Assembly (NCBI RefSeq): GCF_000018405.1 | Contig: NC_009943.1 | Span: forward strand, 1,367,001-1,431,000 | Length of the DNA stretch: 64,000 nt | Direction of reading: 5' to 3' | DNA from: Desulfosudis oleivorans Hxd3 | Lineage (GTDB): Bacteria; Desulfobacterota; Desulfobacteria; Desulfobacterales; Desulfosudaceae | Part shown: positions 20,480-49,603 of the stretch, one piece after another | How positions within the stretch are numbered: the stretch's first letter is position 1 | Layout: the number at the start of each line of letters is the position of its first letter | Translations under genes and position numbers: made by a program | The notes under the pieces: generated by a model | What the model was told of the DNA's origin: nothing | The model's database searches: none | Seen by the model: only the letters and a program-made list of their open reading frames with translations

Positions 20480-20522
20480 AAAATCGGTATCGCTATCGGT
20501 ATCGGTATCGGCATCGAAATCA
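20480..20522. repeat. CGATNC hexamer tract 1
   Basis: Seven consecutive six-base units on the GATNCC/CGATNC theme, here in the ATCGGT orientation. Lies between the divergent hdrC and acyltransferase genes. Confidence 0.85.
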
Positions 20523-24695: not shown

Positions 24696-24747
24696 CGATA
24701 CCGATTTCGATACCGATACCGATACCGATACCGATACCGATTTGGAT
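24696..24747. repeat. CGATNC hexamer tract 2
   Basis: CGATAC units repeated, interrupted once by CGATTTC and ending CGATTTGGAT. It ends 8 bases before the ATG of the cysK-cysS fusion, occupying the place where a ribosome binding site would be expected. Confidence 0.9.
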
Positions 24748-24755
24748 AGATTGAT

Positions 24756-27071
24756 ATGGACCATACTCTGTTAAACAAGATCGGCAACACTCCTTTGGTG
24801 GAGATTCGGCGGCTCTCCCCGAATCCGAGGGTTAAAATTTTTGCCAAGCTGGAGTACATGAACCCCGGCGGATCGATCAAGGACCGGGCCGCTGTTGCCA
24901 TGATCGAAGACGGTGAAGCCTCCGGCCGCCTGACAAAAGAGAAGATCGTGCTGGAGGCCACCAGCGGCAACACCGGCATCGGACTTGCCATGGTGTGCGC
25001 CATCAAGGGGTACCGGCTGCTGTTGGCCATGTCCGAGCGGGCCAGTGAAGAGCGCAAGAAGATTCTGCGGGCCCGGGGAGCCGAGATTCTGCTCACGCCC
25101 GGCCATCTGGGAACGGACGGCGCCATTGAAGAGGTCTACCGGCTGGCCCGGGAAAACCCGGAAACCTATTTCTGTACCGACCAGTTCAACAACGAGGCCA
25201 ACTGGAAGGCCCATTACACCGGCACGGCCCAGGAGATATGGGATCAGACCGAGGGAAAGGTGGACGTGGTGGTGGCCACCCTGGGCACCAGCGGAACAGC
25301 CATGGGCCTTTCCCGGCGCCTTAAAGAACTCAAACCGGATATTCGCATCGTGGGGGTGGAACCGTTTCTAGGGCACAAGATTCAGGGGCTCAAAAACATG
25401 AAGGAGTCCTACCGCCCGGAAATTTTTGAACAGAAGCGGCTGGACGCCAAACCCAACATCGAGGATGAGGCCGCCTACGAAATGACCCGCCGCCTGGCCA
25501 GGGAAGAAGGGCTGCTGGTGGGCATGAGCAGCGGGGCCGCCATGCACGTTGCCGCAGAAGAGGCCCGGGCCATGGAAGCCGGCATCATCGTGGTGATCCT
25601 GCCGGACAGCGGCGAGCGTTATCTTTCCACCACGCTGTTTGTGGAGCCCGAGAAGAGCGGTGTGGTGCTGTTCAACACCCTGACCCGGGAAAAGGAGGCG
25701 TTTGCGCCCCTGGCGCAGGGAAAGGCCTCCATCTATTCCTGCGGCCCCACGGTCCACGCCCGCATGGACCTGGGCCAGTGCCGTCGCATGGTGTTTGCCG
25801 ATCTGCTTTGCCGTTACCTGGTCTACAGGGGATTCGAGGTCCGGCATATTGTCAATATTACCGATTTTGACGACAGGACCATAGAGGGCGCCCAGAAGGC
25901 GGGCATGGACCTGGCCGCGTTTACCGGCACCTACATCGATCTTTTTAAAGCGGATCTCAAGACCCTGCGGGTCCATCCGGCCGACGCCTATCCCCTGGCC
26001 AGCCAGGAGGCGCCGGAGATGGTGGCCCTGGTCGAAAAGCTGGTGGACCGAGGCGTGGCCTATGAAAAACTGCGGTCGGTCTATTTTGATATTGCCAGCG
26101 CCGAAGGGTATGGCGGGCTTTCCAACATAGACACCAACAAAATTCGGCTGGGCGCCACAGTGGACCTGGACGAATATGAAAAGGAGAACCCCCGGGACTT
26201 TACCCTGCTCAAGCGGGCCAAGATGTCCGAGCTCAAGCAAGGATGGTATCTGAAGACCCGTTGGGGCAATGTGCGGCCGTCGTTGCACATTCAATGCGCC
26301 GCCATTTCCAGAAAATACCTGGGGGACCGGTTTGATATTCATACCGGCAGCCGGGATCTGGTGTTTCCCCACCATGAAAACGAGATTGCCATTGCCCGGG
26401 CCGCCACCGGCCGGGAGCCGGCCCGTTATTGGGTTCACTGCGACAGCGTGCTGGAGTCGGACGACAGTGTGCACTGGAAGACGGCCCGCACCACCCTAGA
26501 GCAGGCCCTGGACATGGGGTTTACCGGTCGCCAGCTGCGGTACTGGCTGATTTCCGGCCATTACCGGAAGGCCCTTTCTTTTTCCGCCGATCGTATTGCG
26601 GCCGCGGCATCGGCCCTGGCCCGGCTGGACGGCTGCGTCCGGTCGCTGGCCGACCTGGCGGCGAACCCGTCCGCGGAAAGTGCCCGGCAAATGGAAGGCG
26701 CGGAACAGGATGTGGACCAGCTGCTCTATGATATCCGGCAGGGATTTGTCGACGCCATGGACGATGACCTGAATGTGTCGGCGGCCCTGGCCAACATTTT
26801 TAAAAATGTGAAAACCGTCAACGTGATGCTGGACCAGTCGCGCCTGGACGGCCCGGCCGCGGAAAAGATACAGGACGCCTTTGCCGGCATCGATAGCGTG
26901 CTGCAGGTGTTTGATTTTGACCAGACCCCGGCCGACGATCTTTTGCCCGAAGTAAAACAGCTGATGGAACAGCGGGAAGCGGCCCGGAAAGCAAAGGACT
27001 GGGAACTGGCGGACCGCCTGCGGGAGACGTTGCGCGACATGGGCGTTTCCGTGACCGATGAAAAGTTGTAA
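24756..27071 (+). CDS. Fusion: cysteine synthase (CysK/CysM) + CysRS-like domain lacking HIGH and KMSKS
   Basis: 771 residues. Residues 1-~300 are a PLP cysteine synthase: PLP lysine K42 in GGSIKDRAA, TSGNTGIG, and the GTSGTAMG phosphate loop. Residues ~306-771 align throughout with cysteinyl-tRNA synthetase (FNTLTREKEAF, CGPTV, HIVNITDFDD, DLVFPHHENEIA, ISGHYR). The zinc ligands are kept (Cys in CGPTV, Cys in LHIQCAA, His and Glu in PHHENE). HIGH is replaced by DLGQ (338-341), and the KMSKS position reads SVHWK (571-575). Both ATP-binding signatures are gone, so normal aminoacylation is unlikely; a real cysS should exist elsewhere. No clear Shine-Dalgarno because hexamer tract 2 ends 8 bases upstream. 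The new function is unknown. Confidence 0.9.
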   Translation: MDHTLLNKIGNTPLVEIRRLSPNPRVKIFAKLEYMNPGGSIKDRAAVAMIEDGEASGRLTKEKIVLEATSGNTGIGLAMVCAIKGYRLLLAMSERASEERKKILRARGAEILLTPGHLGTDGAIEEVYRLARENPETYFCTDQFNNEANWKAHYTGTAQEIWDQTEGKVDVVVATLGTSGTAMGLSRRLKELKPDIRIVGVEPFLGHKIQGLKNMKESYRPEIFEQKRLDAKPNIEDEAAYEMTRRLAREEGLLVGMSSGAAMHVAAEEARAMEAGIIVVILPDSGERYLSTTLFVEPEKSGVVLFNTLTREKEAFAPLAQGKASIYSCGPTVHARMDLGQCRRMVFADLLCRYLVYRGFEVRHIVNITDFDDRTIEGAQKAGMDLAAFTGTYIDLFKADLKTLRVHPADAYPLASQEAPEMVALVEKLVDRGVAYEKLRSVYFDIASAEGYGGLSNIDTNKIRLGATVDLDEYEKENPRDFTLLKRAKMSELKQGWYLKTRWGNVRPSLHIQCAAISRKYLGDRFDIHTGSRDLVFPHHENEIAIARAATGREPARYWVHCDSVLESDDSVHWKTARTTLEQALDMGFTGRQLRYWLISGHYRKALSFSADRIAAAASALARLDGCVRSLADLAANPSAESARQMEGAEQDVDQLLYDIRQGFVDAMDDDLNVSAALANIFKNVKTVNVMLDQSRLDGPAAEKIQDAFAGIDSVLQVFDFDQTPADDLLPEVKQLMEQREAARKAKDWELADRLRETLRDMGVSVTDEKL

Positions 27072-27080
27072 GGACCTGTG

Positions 27081-28088
27081 ATGATACCTATCTATTTTCC
27101 TTTTTCCGTTTTGTCCGACCGGACCATGGCCCGCCTGGTCGTCTGTTTTCCGGTCATGGGAATTTACCTGCCTGCAGAAAGCGCCAGGGAACCGGTCCTG
27201 GGACTTTGCGGCCAGCCGGAATATCTGGAAACCCGTGTGCCGGCGGCCGACCTGGATGGAGCAGTGGAAGACCTTTACCGGGCCGCCATTCAGTGGAAGG
27301 AGGCGACCCTCGGCGCTGACATGTCGTTTGTCAAAACATGGGAAAAGGGTCGCGCCCCCTTTTTTGATGAAACCACCATCTCCTATGTCCGCAATGAGAT
27401 TTTGAGGCAAAAGAGCGCTGCGGCAACAGCAGCAGATGATCTGGTGGAAGCCAAGCTCTTTATGCGCCTGGCCCTGGACCACGACCTTGGGGAGGCGGAG
27501 GTGGCCCGGGGGGTCGGTGCCCTGGAGGCCAGGGAAAAAGCCATTTTTGACACCCTTCGCGGCGAAAGCGGGGATGACGACGATCTTTCCCAGGAGGTGC
27601 TGGGCCTGAGTGTTGCCGGTCCGGCGGAAGATGCGGGCACCCGCATGACGGGCCAGCGAATGCGGGCCTGGGCCATGGTGGCGGCCCGCGACACCCTGCC
27701 GTCCGCGGTTTTTATCACAGACAGCGAGGCAGTGATAGCCCACATTGAGGCCTGTTTCCCCTCCATGGCACCGGTCGCGGAAATCCCCGGCATTCCTTTT
27801 CTGGACGCAGTCACCGATCCGCTGGCCTTGAAAGACTGGCAGGGTGAGCTCTCAGACTTTCTGGAAAAACTGGCCCGCGGCAGGGGAGATGAACGCCTTC
27901 CGGCGCCCGCCGCTTTTTTCCATGGCGGCCCGGAGTGGAGTGAAGCCGTCCTGTCCCTTTTTGTTCTTCCCGATACCGGGCCCCGCGCTTTTTTTGAGTT
28001 TTTTGCGCCCCGGGTTGCCGGGCACGATGATGTTCCGGACGGGAAAGATATAAAAAATATTATTATCGGAAGGTTAAAAACAGTGTAA
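27081..28088 (+). CDS. Conserved hypothetical protein
   Basis: 335 residues from the ATG at 27081 (a GTG immediately before is possible). AAGGACC precedes. It starts 10 bases after the cysK-cysS fusion and is probably cotranscribed. The sequence is acidic, has no signal peptide or membrane segment, and I recognise no domain. The central part (~115-175) looks helical. Composition matches the GC-rich core genes. Confidence 0.75.
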   Translation: MIPIYFPFSVLSDRTMARLVVCFPVMGIYLPAESAREPVLGLCGQPEYLETRVPAADLDGAVEDLYRAAIQWKEATLGADMSFVKTWEKGRAPFFDETTISYVRNEILRQKSAAATAADDLVEAKLFMRLALDHDLGEAEVARGVGALEAREKAIFDTLRGESGDDDDLSQEVLGLSVAGPAEDAGTRMTGQRMRAWAMVAARDTLPSAVFITDSEAVIAHIEACFPSMAPVAEIPGIPFLDAVTDPLALKDWQGELSDFLEKLARGRGDERLPAPAAFFHGGPEWSEAVLSLFVLPDTGPRAFFEFFAPRVAGHDDVPDGKDIKNIIIGRLKTV

Positions 28089-38013: not shown

Positions 38014-38060
38014 ATCCAAATCGGGATCGGTATCGGTATCGGAATCGCATCGATCTCGAC
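38014..38060. repeat. CGATNC hexamer tract 6
   Basis: Reverse orientation: ATCCAAATCGGGATCGGT followed by further ATCGGN units. It ends 16 bases before the ridA start. Confidence 0.85.
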
Positions 38061-46013: not shown

Positions 46014-49000
46014 ACATTACCGAAACTGCAAATGCTTTTCTCTATAATCGTCTGGTAACAATTGCCAAAAGCGGTAATGCGGAAGCCTTGCAATCACTTC
46101 TGGCGGGTACAGGGTTACCTGCCTTGGCACGGGATGACGAACCTGCGGAACAAATTTTCAATGCTTTGGAATCTGGAGACTATGGTAATCTTGCGCGCCG
46201 GATTACCCGTCTGCTTGCAAAATTGCTCCATCAGCGAGCGGAGTCATTGGAACGCAGCCTTGCCGCAATGGGGGGTGCAGCCATAGGCGGGCGCAATGCG
46301 CAGATGGTTTCAAGCCCGTATCTGGAAGACGAAACTTATGTTTATAATTTATTCCTTCTATCTTCCAGGCTACCGCGTGACGAAGCACTATTTGGTGGTT
46401 TGAGGCGTTTTTTCGATATTGGTTTTACACGTGGCGTGATCATTACCACCACGGGCAACAGGGCAGGTTTTCAACTTCGGCGTGCACTGGCGGAGCAGCA
46501 GACAGACCTCAGCCTGCGAGACTATTTTCAGGATTTGCTCGAAGATAAAAAACGCCCGTGGAATCCAGGCAGGCGAACCGAGTTGCTGGAGGCATGGCGT
46601 GGGCTACTCGGCTCACTTAATTTTGACAAAGATCGTGATGATACCTTGCGAACCATCGACAGGGGTTTGCGCGCAATTCATGATACTGTGGAGCCTCATC
46701 CTGAAAGTATTGACCTTCTTACACTGGCACTGTGGCATCTGGATAACAGCTTCCCGCTGGATTCACCGACCTGGGTCAGTTATCTGGAAAGCTACTGGGC
46801 CGACTGGCCGGAATTGTTGCGCGACATCGCCGCTGAAACCTGGCCGGGGTTGGACCCCCAGCCGCTTGATGAACTTCCTTCGTTACCGGAAGACATGGTG
46901 AAGGTCTGGGATGCGTTTGGCGATGAAGAACAGGCAAATTTTCGTGACATTATCAGGCGCAATGCTGCGGAGGAGGGGCAAAGTTTTATCAATCAGCTCC
47001 TTTTTAAGCCTTTTGTCGTTAGTGATCTGCCGCTCCAAGAGGTGCGTAATTTGCTGATGCGGCTGGCGGACCATTTTTGGCCGAAGAAGGAAAGCCCTAA
47101 AATCAACACGCCTGATGAACCCGAGCAAAGGCTGGATATCAATAGCCAGCAGTCAAAGCGAAGAGTATCGATGGACCGGCTTTCCAGAATGGAAGCGGTC
47201 AACCGGACTTTGACTGAGATTGAGCGCCATCTGGCGGAAGGGCATGAATCAATTGCCCGTCGTTTTGTTGAGGAGTTGATAGAACAGCAGCGTAAAGCTG
47301 TTGTGGCGGATAGCTATCAACATACCGCCAAGACGCTCTCTAAAGCAGCGACTATAGCCCAGCGTTACGGCTTGCTGGAATGGGCGGAAAACTTGCTTCG
47401 GGAGGCGTGTGAGGAAAATCCTAACGACGAAGTATCGGCCAATGGCCTGGCGGATGTGCTGAAAGCACGCGGGGAACTGGAGGCTGCGGAGCAACAATAT
47501 CGCCAGAACACCGCCCGCTGGCCTAACGACGAAGTATCGGCCTGTGGCCTGGCGGATGTGCTGAAAGTACGCGGGGAACTGGAGGCTGCGGAGCAACAAT
47601 ATCGCCAGAACACCGCCCGCTGGCCTAACGACGAAGTATCGGCCTGTGGCCTGGCGGATGTGCTGAAAGCACGCGGGGAACTGGAGGCTGCGGAGCAACA
47701 ATATCGCCAGAACACCGCCCGCTGGCCTAACGACGAAGTATCGGCCTGTGGCCTGGCGGATGTGCTGAAAGCACGCGGGGAACTGGAGGCTGCGGAGCAA
47801 CAATATCGCCAGAACACCGCCCGCTGGCCGAACGACGAAGTATCGGCCTGTGGCCTGGCGGATGTGCTGAAAGCACGCGGGGAACTGGAGGCTGCGGAGC
47901 AACAATATCGCCAGAACACCGCCCGCTGGCCGAACAACGAAGTATCGGCCTGTGGCCTGGCGGATGTGCTGAAAGCACGCGGGGAACTGGAGGCTGCGGA
48001 GCAACAATATCGCCAGAACACCGCCCGCTGGCCTAACGACGAAGTATCGGCCTGTGGCCTGGCGGATGTGCTGAAAGCACGCGGGGAACTGGAGGCTGCG
48101 GAGCAACAATATCGCCAGAACACCGCCCGCTGGCCGAACGACGAAGTATCGGCCTGTGGCCTGGCGGATGTGCTGAAAGCACGCGGGGAACTGGAGGCTG
48201 CGGAGCAACAATATCGCCAGAACACCGCCCGCTGGCCGAACAACGAAGTATCGGCCTGTGGCCTGGCGGATGTGCTGAAAGCACGCGGGGAACTGGAGGC
48301 TGCGGAGCAACAATATCGCCAGAACACCGCCCGCTGGCCTAACGACGAAGTATCGGCCAATGGCCTGGCGGATGTGCTGAAAGCACGCGGGGAACTGGAG
48401 GCTGCGGAGCAACAATATCGCCAGAACACCGCCCGCTGGCCTAACGACGAAGTATCGGCCAATGGCCTGGCGGATGTGCTGAAAGCACGCGGGGAACTGG
48501 AGGCTGCGGAGCAACAATATCGCCAGAACACCGCCCGCTGGCCTAACGACGAAGTATCGGCCAATGGCCTGGCGGATGTGCTGAAAGCACGCGGGGAACT
48601 GGAGGCTGCGGAGCAACAATATCGCCAGAACACCGCCCGCTGGCCTAACGACGAAGTATCGGCCAATGGCCTGGCGGATGTGCTGAAAGCACGCGGGGAA
48701 CTGGAGGCTGCGGAGCAACAATATCGCCAGAACACCGCCCGCTGGCCTAACAACGAAGTATCGGCCTGTGGCCTGGCGGATGTGCTGAAAGCACGCGGGG
48801 AACTGGAGGCTGCGGAGCAACAATATCGCCAGAACACCGCCCGCTGGCCTAACGACGAAGTATCAGCCAATGGCCTGGCGGATGTGCTGAAAGCACGCGG
48901 GGAACTGGAGGCTGCGGAGCAACAATATCGCCAGAACACCGCCCGCTGGCCTAACGACGAAGTATCGGCCAATGGCCTGGCGGATGTGCTGAAAGCACGC

Positions 49001-49603
49001 GGGGAACTGGAGGCTGCGGAGCAACAATATCGCCAGAACACCGCCCGCTGGCCTAATAGTCATTTTGTTGTAAACGGACTGGCTAATGTATTGAGAAAGT
49101 TGAAACGTCACCCCGAGGCTTTGAGTCTGTTGTCGTCATGCCAGTCTCCAGATTGCCACGATTTACATTTGCGTGCGATGATTTTGCTGGATTTGGGTAG
49201 GATAGAAGATGCGCGCATATCTCTCATTGAAGGGCAGCATTTGGCTATCACCCCAGTTCAGAAAGAATATTTTCAGCGCGGTTTGGCGCTGCTGGAAATT
49301 CGAGCGCGTCAGTATGACTCCGCCAGAGAGATATTAGCCAGATTACCCGGAAATGTCATTCCCCTTGATTTGTTCCGACTTCACACAGAAGTGGCGCAAG
49401 GAGAAACCGCCAAGGCAAGCGAGTTATTGCATTCGTTGGAGGCACGCAGATCGCGCATGAATTTCAATGAATGCAAGGTGTTCGAACTGGTGCGGCAAGG
49501 TTTTGGTCTAAACGTCAGCAGCCACGGACATCAGCCGAATGAAAGTGAATTGGAAAAAATTTTTGACGCCGAAATGGAACTCCAATTAGCGGTTAATTTT
49601 TGA
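46010..49603 (+). CDS. TPR-array protein with unknown N-terminal domain, second gene of cassette
   Basis: 1197 residues. Residues 1-~430 are a unique region (SSRLPRDEALFGGLRRFFDIGFTRG, LEAWRGLLGSLNFDKDRDD, YWADWPELLRDIA) with no family I recognise. Then one degenerate TPR, 16 nearly identical 34-residue TPRs (consensus NDEVSANGLADVLKARGELE followed by AAEQQYRQNTARWP; codons 472-1015), and a degenerate tail of TPR-like helices. TPR arrays are protein-binding scaffolds. Coupled to the gene upstream. Codon use and the flanking repeat copies suggest horizontal acquisition; a defence or surface role is possible but not shown. Confidence 0.8.
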   Translation: MNITETANAFLYNRLVTIAKSGNAEALQSLLAGTGLPALARDDEPAEQIFNALESGDYGNLARRITRLLAKLLHQRAESLERSLAAMGGAAIGGRNAQMVSSPYLEDETYVYNLFLLSSRLPRDEALFGGLRRFFDIGFTRGVIITTTGNRAGFQLRRALAEQQTDLSLRDYFQDLLEDKKRPWNPGRRTELLEAWRGLLGSLNFDKDRDDTLRTIDRGLRAIHDTVEPHPESIDLLTLALWHLDNSFPLDSPTWVSYLESYWADWPELLRDIAAETWPGLDPQPLDELPSLPEDMVKVWDAFGDEEQANFRDIIRRNAAEEGQSFINQLLFKPFVVSDLPLQEVRNLLMRLADHFWPKKESPKINTPDEPEQRLDINSQQSKRRVSMDRLSRMEAVNRTLTEIERHLAEGHESIARRFVEELIEQQRKAVVADSYQHTAKTLSKAATIAQRYGLLEWAENLLREACEENPNDEVSANGLADVLKARGELEAAEQQYRQNTARWPNDEVSACGLADVLKVRGELEAAEQQYRQNTARWPNDEVSACGLADVLKARGELEAAEQQYRQNTARWPNDEVSACGLADVLKARGELEAAEQQYRQNTARWPNDEVSACGLADVLKARGELEAAEQQYRQNTARWPNNEVSACGLADVLKARGELEAAEQQYRQNTARWPNDEVSACGLADVLKARGELEAAEQQYRQNTARWPNDEVSACGLADVLKARGELEAAEQQYRQNTARWPNNEVSACGLADVLKARGELEAAEQQYRQNTARWPNDEVSANGLADVLKARGELEAAEQQYRQNTARWPNDEVSANGLADVLKARGELEAAEQQYRQNTARWPNDEVSANGLADVLKARGELEAAEQQYRQNTARWPNDEVSANGLADVLKARGELEAAEQQYRQNTARWPNNEVSACGLADVLKARGELEAAEQQYRQNTARWPNDEVSANGLADVLKARGELEAAEQQYRQNTARWPNDEVSANGLADVLKARGELEAAEQQYRQNTARWPNSHFVVNGLANVLRKLKRHPEALSLLSSCQSPDCHDLHLRAMILLDLGRIEDARISLIEGQHLAITPVQKEYFQRGLALLEIRARQYDSAREILARLPGNVIPLDLFRLHTEVAQGETAKASELLHSLEARRSRMNFNECKVFELVRQGFGLNVSSHGHQPNESELEKIFDAEMELQLAVNF
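47423..49054 (+). repeat. 16 tandem 102-bp coding repeats (TPR units)
   Basis: Units start every 102 bases from 47423 to 48953. Differences are confined to a few positions: CCT/CCG before the unit, AAC-GAC/AAC-AAC, AAT/TGT (N/C), one A-to-V in unit 2, one TCA in unit 15. Units 4-6 equal units 7-9, a 306-base higher-order duplication. Confidence 0.97.

Follow-up and report, generated by a model that had tools for sequence, protein, structure and literature searches.

The gene at positions 24756-27071 (+ strand, as are all its features given below) of the 64,000-nucleotide stretch of the Desulfosudis oleivorans Hxd3 genome analysed here (contig NC_009943.1, positions 1,367,001 to 1,431,000; hereafter the window) encodes a protein of 771 amino acids, running from an ATG without internal stop, in which a cysteine synthase half is followed by a half resembling cysteinyl-tRNA synthetase (CysRS). 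Judging from sequence, this fusion is probably a cysteine synthase that works independently of CysE, likely on O-phosphoserine, joined to a CysRS that no longer activates cysteine but still docks tRNA-Cys. We tentatively extend this to a complete statement, namely that tRNA-Cys docked on the dead CysRS switches the non-CysE synthase. Matches running through both halves were found in at least 150 of the 395 genomes scanned in the phylum, where the chain of a cysteine synthase apparently still includes a non-activating CysRS together with the residues that read tRNA; in many of them no other cysteine synthase was found, nor a CysE beside the fusion.

Distribution of the fusion

Apart from the D. 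oleivorans protein (the query), the matches of the phylum scan show 45-64% identity. Three of the 150 listed matches are shorter, two lying at contig ends (G078 and G305) and one being interrupted by a frameshift (G014); five further genomes of the phylum, listed without a position, have best E-values of 4e-184 to 5e-192. Nine full-length fusions stood among the best 80 loci in a scan of 84,980 species genomes, under titles naming Desulfobacterales, Desulfobacteraceae, Desulfocapsa, Desulfobulbus and Deltaproteobacteria. These nine, 29 loci of the phylum scan and 100 of the 120 other listed matches make up 138 full-length relatives and, with the query, a set of 139 distinct proteins, which was compared with 72 CysRS sequences (71 from the species-genome scan and the host's own stand-alone CysRS). 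A FastTree of the 211 sequences unites the 139 fusions in a single group (local support 0.695), a result that is only a guide because the support was read after re-rooting. The frameshifted fusion of the single-contig genome G014 (locus L240, outside the 139) is broken near residue 588 and is the sole cysKM match there. One genome (G351, 97% complete) has neither a cysKM nor a cysE match, and the other two sampled members of its genus g3, G072 and G370, carry the fusion. No description of the fusion was found in the open full-text literature, subscription papers and sequence-database notes lying outside the search, nor in an open-literature search on cysteine synthesis in Desulfovibrio; UniProt presumably names such proteins 'multifunctional fusion protein'.

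Domain organisation and conserved sites

The first 300 residues (24756-25655) constitute a CysK/CysM-type synthase dependent on pyridoxal phosphate (PLP): they match PALP of Pfam at residues 7-284 (240.5 bits) and pass the cysKM model (354.9 bits against a cut-off of 344.15). The lysine K42 (24879-24881), in the motif NPGGSIKDR, the lysine that in this family forms the Schiff base with PLP, is present in the query, as the first-pass annotation stated, and in all 139 fusions. The synthase motifs SGNTG and GTxGT are likewise at 100% in the fusions (columns 70-74, 177, 178, 180 and 181). The CysRS-like half (residues 303-771) is full, with a catalytic domain at 316-618 (25701-26609; PF01406, tRNA-synt_1e, 250.4 bits; structure matches 8qhp, 1u0b and 1li5), a DALR_2 domain at 664-716 (26745-26903) and a CysS_C anticodon-binding domain at 727-770 (26934-27065), the last two assigned by Pfam. 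The TIGR00435 cysS model spans residues 305-769, so that the earlier description of some 465 residues resembling CysRS end to end is correct. With 340.6 bits, the query barely exceeds the cut-off of 340 and would pass as a cysteine--tRNA ligase, yet very likely charges no tRNA. The predicted structure has a mean predicted local distance difference test (pLDDT) score of 87.3, falling below 50 in the linker at 286-299 and at 571-573; structure comparison pairs the CysRS-like half with 8qhp, MshC and 1u0b, a complex with tRNA, and the CysK half with O-acetylserine sulfhydrylases.

Losses and gains in the CysRS-like half

Signature and ligand positions were placed by alignment to E. coli CysRS (1LI5) and to the 72 CysRS sequences. 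This alignment agrees with the first-pass annotation in that the query has neither HIGH nor KMSKS: the former reads DLGQ (residues 338-341, 25767-25778) and the latter SVHWK (residues 571-575, 26466-26480). Across the family, KMSK occurs in 0/139 fusions against 69/72 CysRS (a variant, xMAK, in the remaining three), and HxG in 61/139 against 72/72. The CysRS-like half has thus most probably lost the ability to activate cysteine, as had been suspected from the query. The four zinc ligands reported earlier are indeed all present in the query, C329 (25740-25742), C514 (26295-26297) and, within HHENE (26370-26384), H539 and E543; we take them to be the equivalents of E. coli C28, C209, H234 and E238. 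Individually they are kept in 107, 122, 139 and 81 of the 139 fusions, and as a complete set in 71 (72/72 in CysRS). Among the 12 relatives printed from the query's order, KMS is lacking in all 12, HxG is found in six and the four ligands together in nine. On the CysK-half tree these patterns require at least 16 changes in HxG, 14 in KMS and 11 in the zinc set, counts that do not in themselves separate loss from gain.

The anticodon readers behave differently. In the CysS_C domain, R740, R744, W749, D753 and D768 (26973-27059) align with E. coli R423, R427, W432, D436 and D451, the last of which we take to be an anticodon reader as well. All five positions are retained in 139/139 fusions, R744 as R or K (K in 4%) and W749 as W, F or Y (F or Y in 32%). 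Among 129 representatives below 90% identity, the readers are found in 129, KMSK in none, HxG in 57 and the zinc set in 66. A divergent member (L221) illustrates the pattern, with HIGH replaced by DPDA, KMSKS by KLARE and the zinc ligands by IIHL while RRFDD and the signature described below are retained. According to a passage of PMC12684709, E. coli R423, R427, W432 and D436 contact the anticodon base G34. To put a figure on this retention, 77 columns are invariant in CysRS (at least 95%); the fusions preserve 31 of these at the same 95% level, 19 of them without exception in all 139 proteins; four random picks from the 77 were all kept equally well in 0.28% of draws, a comparison in which R439, not a named contact, counts as the fourth, and for the three CysRS-invariant contact columns alone the chance is about 1.5%, (19/77)^3. 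We regard the retention of the readers as good but not decisive evidence that binding of tRNA has been kept.

The CysRS-like half has also acquired features of its own. R344 (25785-25787), adjoining the former HIGH site, is found in 99% of the 139 fusions, where the 72 CysRS have P (53%) or A (17%). Further along, a signature at residues 470-496 (26163-26243) comprises D470, Y474, R487 and the insert L493-K494-x-G496, each at 97-100% in the fusions; columns 493, 494 and 496 are gaps in 72/72 CysRS. The combination of R344, R487, K494 and G496 occurs in 136/139 fusions and 0/72 CysRS.

Both halves are under purifying selection. In 21 pairs at 85-98.5% identity, the ratio of non-synonymous to synonymous substitution rates (dN/dS) is 0.017-0.150 for the CysK half and 0.044-0.211 for the CysRS-like half; pairs with saturated differences were skipped uncounted, and in 4 of the 21 one half or both have a dS above 1. 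Random decay of a passenger domain is rejected on these values and on the length of the CysRS-like half, 458-490 residues in 139/139. The first-pass annotation had also raised the conservation of DLGQ and SVHWK among homologues and a new ligation chemistry. DLGQ recurs in 2/139 and SVHWK in 1/139 fusions, which points to drift rather than new chemistry, and the latter idea was abandoned, since no conserved motif has taken the place of the former ATP site. A persulfide synthase of the CysRS type is not favoured either: its lysines presumably lie in KIIK and KMSKS, and the fusions have K at position 374 in only 40% and have lost KMSKS.

Probable cysteine synthesis without CysE

Gene content was compared in 80 of the 395 genomes, 50 with the fusion and 30 without, picked mostly by completeness (thresholds: E<=1e-50 for cysKM, 1e-15 for cysE and 1e-30 for MetX-type acyltransferases). 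A cysS match besides the fusion exists in 50/50 fusion genomes, 49 of them full-length and one partial (G040, model positions 1-251 in a 318-residue frame); the separate full-length copies score 432-605 bits and the fusion halves 141-457. The canonical cysS that the first-pass annotation proposed looking for was found in the host genome, the one in which signatures of the separate copy were inspected, at C1:1982622-1984046 (565.8 bits, HIGH and KMSKS intact). Third cysS-like matches lie at G134:C61:164356-165615 and G020:C1:594025-595398, one with two in-frame TAA codons and one in a 742-residue frame.

The occurrence of CysE follows that of a second synthase. Of the 50 fusion genomes, 23 have a second cysKM match; each of these also has a cysE match, which in 18 lies no more than 500 bases from the second cysKM gene. 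By contrast, no cysE match was found in 26 of the 27 genomes in which the fusion is the only cysKM match, including the host, a single contig of 3,944,167 bases with three further, more distant PALP genes. CysE absence goes with fusion-only status (Fisher p 2e-13), also when lineage is taken into account: nine independent pairs could be drawn on supported branches of the tree (47/50 genomes mapped), of which eight agree, none opposes and one shows no difference (p 0.008). This pattern indicates that the fusion is probably a CysE-independent cysteine synthase, and in the host no CysE hit was found that would serve a CysE-dependent O-acetylserine pathway. MetX-type acyltransferases were absent from 25/27 fusion-only genomes, MetA-type enzymes not having been searched for. 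In most fusion-only genomes, no known maker of O-acylserine was thus found, which makes O-phosphoserine, a product of SerC according to an excerpt of PMC9855970, the likely acceptor. Synthesis on tRNA through SepRS is rejected for the host, where the best SepRS hit reaches 23.6 bits against a cut-off of 380.65.

Independence from CysE seems to be a property of the CysK half that does not require the CysRS-like half, because stand-alone synthases of CysE-less genomes share its loop. Six of the 30 genomes without the fusion have a cysteine synthase and no cysE match (G010, G016, G039, G054, G090 and G119), and five of these six enzymes, all but that of G010, carry the short GLK[NH] loop seen in the fusion, where it reads HKIQGLKNMKESY (residues 207-219, 25374-25412). 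K213 of this loop is present in 139/139 fusions and presumably corresponds to Arg220 of Mycobacterium tuberculosis CysM. The short loop also occurs in genomes with CysE (L236, L237, L239 and L241) and is therefore not diagnostic by itself. Use of O-phosphoserine could not be read from the sequence, the solved O-phosphoserine sulfhydrylase 3dki being among the structure matches listed and outside the five alignments shown. Stand-alone short-loop synthases L228, L236, L239 and L241 have in common a C-terminal tail with a CxxCPP motif.

A proposed role for tRNA-Cys and its alternatives

The sequences show CysK motifs intact, the ATP site lost across the family, anticodon readers retained, both halves under purifying selection, a separate cysS and no CysE match; from these we infer that the fusion uses O-phosphoserine and binds tRNA, and that the synthase half is switched. 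The synthase half would add sulfide to an activated serine of non-CysE origin, O-phosphoserine supplied by the serine pathway being the likeliest. The CysRS-derived half, no longer forming cysteinyl-adenylate, would dock tRNA-Cys through its GCA anticodon, and the docked tRNA, most simply in its uncharged form, would switch the synthase half. Cysteine would then be made when tRNA-Cys lacks cysteine, the tRNA serving as a signal of demand. Coupling between the anticodon domain and the active site is documented for E. coli CysRS, as an excerpt of PMC9976931 describes; docking could thus be passed on to the former active site and from there to the synthase. Formation of cysteine on or beside tRNA-Cys appears far less likely than gating by the tRNA. 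If such gating occurs, amino-acid synthesis would be coupled to the demand of translation by direct contact, with neither a transcription factor nor a riboswitch. That the fusion represents a bacterial biosynthetic enzyme carrying its dead cognate synthetase in one chain, and gated by both the anticodon and the charging state of the corresponding tRNA, is a possibility that we regard as doubtful.

Several points weigh against the proposed role. The anticodon readers could persist for reasons of fold, and a chance figure of about 0.015 is suggestive rather than proof. Within the phylum, the CysRS-like half is as diverged (45% mean identity) as the 72 CysRS are across many phyla (48%). In the predicted structure, the relative orientation of the two halves is uncertain (predicted template-modelling score of 0.64). 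In G052, the one exception among the fusion-only genomes, a 576-residue frame gives a CysE-like hit, though only a partial one. In the 23 genomes with a second synthase, every cysE hit (about 145-171 bits) falls short of the curated cut-off of 210.65, so that the name CysE follows here from similarity and from the position next to cysK; that cut-off is passed in only 6/80 genomes, none with the fusion, and the model rings in 10/14 control genomes. The host, one of the two fusion-only genomes with a MetX-type match, has one MetX-like acyltransferase that is perhaps able to acylate serine; at 475 bits it lies below the model's cut-off of 500, which none of the 14 control genomes reaches. Finally, in alignment the GLKN loop falls on the GIRRW loop found in solved structures of cysteine synthase B. 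E. coli CysM uses O-acetylserine. C. jejuni CysM accepted O-acetylserine only (PMC9855970); the loop is therefore no proof of O-phosphoserine use.

Among the alternatives, the dead CysRS half could be a cysteine sensor of the HisZ kind, which would bind free cysteine at the zinc site and feedback-inhibit the synthase without any role for tRNA. Inhibition by histidine is conveyed by HisZ, which performs no adenylation (PMC9437257), the query and nine of the 12 printed relatives of its order have all four zinc ligands, H539 is invariant, and a tryptophan at position 510 is found in 97% of fusions, though the query has leucine. Such sensing fits the query's order better than the family, where the zinc set is whole in only 71/139 with at least 11 changes on the tree, and it leaves the invariant anticodon readers unexplained; we consider it unlikely. 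Of the first-pass suggestion that the half could bind cysteine or tRNA, it is the binding of tRNA that conservation favours. The anticodon readers and the selection on both halves would serve equally well for a channelling hub, in which the half docks tRNA-Cys, and perhaps the real CysRS too, close to the synthase, and freshly made cysteine passes straight to charging without any switching. The separate cysS match in all 50 fusion genomes tested suits such a hub; the complex it calls for is hypothetical, however, and R344, R487 and LKxG, the newly acquired invariants, find no explanation in channelling, which we regard as distinctly unlikely.

More unlikely still is a structural or oligomerising tail that merely stabilises the synthase. 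The erosion of both zinc and ATP sites would be expected of such a tail, as would the lower conservation of the CysRS-like half (mean identity of 45% against 64% for the CysK half) and the stand-alone CysKs that have the same loop without it; yet the five anticodon positions stand in 139/139, and some 470 residues held at a dN/dS of about 0.04-0.21 would be costly for a mere stabiliser. It is very improbable that the fusion is still a cysteine-activating enzyme, whether a second CysRS or an ATP-dependent ligase resembling MshC. HxG, KMSR and all zinc ligands occur together in 18/139 fusions, so that activity in those lineages is possible, and HxG is kept in half of the printed relatives of the query's order. 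Against this, the canonical KMSK of CysRS occurs in no fusion, KMS is lost in the query as in all 12 of these relatives, and a separate cysS is at hand in 50/50 fusion genomes.

Relation to known systems

The closest analogy may be HisZ, a HisRS paralogue that lacks adenylation and controls HisG, an enzyme of histidine biosynthesis (PMC9437257). As in HisZ, a non-adenylating synthetase paralogue is tied to an enzyme on the biosynthetic route of its cognate amino acid, with control being our proposal for the fusion; HisZ is a separate subunit that senses free histidine, whereas the fusion carries a covalent class I synthetase with anticodon readers and, if gated by tRNA, would be the class I, covalent counterpart of HisZ. 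A non-charging synthetase-like domain fused to an enzyme is also known from the eukaryotic GCN2, whose HisRS-like domain reads tRNA charging, as we propose for the fusion; its partner is a kinase acting on translation, whereas that of the fusion is the biosynthetic enzyme itself. MshC too is derived from CysRS, and the query scores 170.2 bits on the MshC model, below the cut-off of 485.1. MshC is not known to have an anticodon domain, whereas the fusion kept CysS_C and lost the ATP site, and the query is no MshC on these grounds. MshC (Cys:GlcN-Ins ligase) is an ATP-dependent ligase, and CysRS* (Mukai 2017b) is an extra CysRS of Desulfobacterales that lacks the anticodon-binding domain and charges SelC*, both as described in parts of PMC9437257. 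The fusion resembles CysRS* as an extra CysRS in Desulfobacterales and differs from it in having the CysS_C domain and in having lost the ATP site; the only tRNA gene within the window is for tRNA-Asn. The O-phosphoserine sulfhydrylases (Aeropyrum pernix OPSS and M. tuberculosis CysM) share with the fusion a cysteine synthase fold able to work without CysE and, to our knowledge, have no CysRS-like half. In the SepRS-SepCysS system cysteine synthesis is likewise coupled with tRNA-Cys, the difference being that cysteine is made on the tRNA, and the D. oleivorans genome has CysRS and no SepRS.

Neighbouring genes and repeats

No operon partner common to the family was found across the 139 loci. 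The commonest neighbour is an unnamed protein encoded on the same strand in 17/139 loci, 13 times downstream and four times upstream of the fusion, within 400 bases in 15. In the window it is represented by an open reading frame of 336 amino acids directly behind the fusion (27078-28088, +), which has no Pfam match and whose relatives are this neighbour. Short six-base arrays (ATCGGT or CGATAC) lie at 20483-20516, 24696-24748 and 38020-38047, one of them immediately ahead of the fusion. A 102-base unit is repeated in 16 copies at 47420-49056 with 98% matches; each unit comprises 34 codons, which we take to be the length of a TPR repeat.

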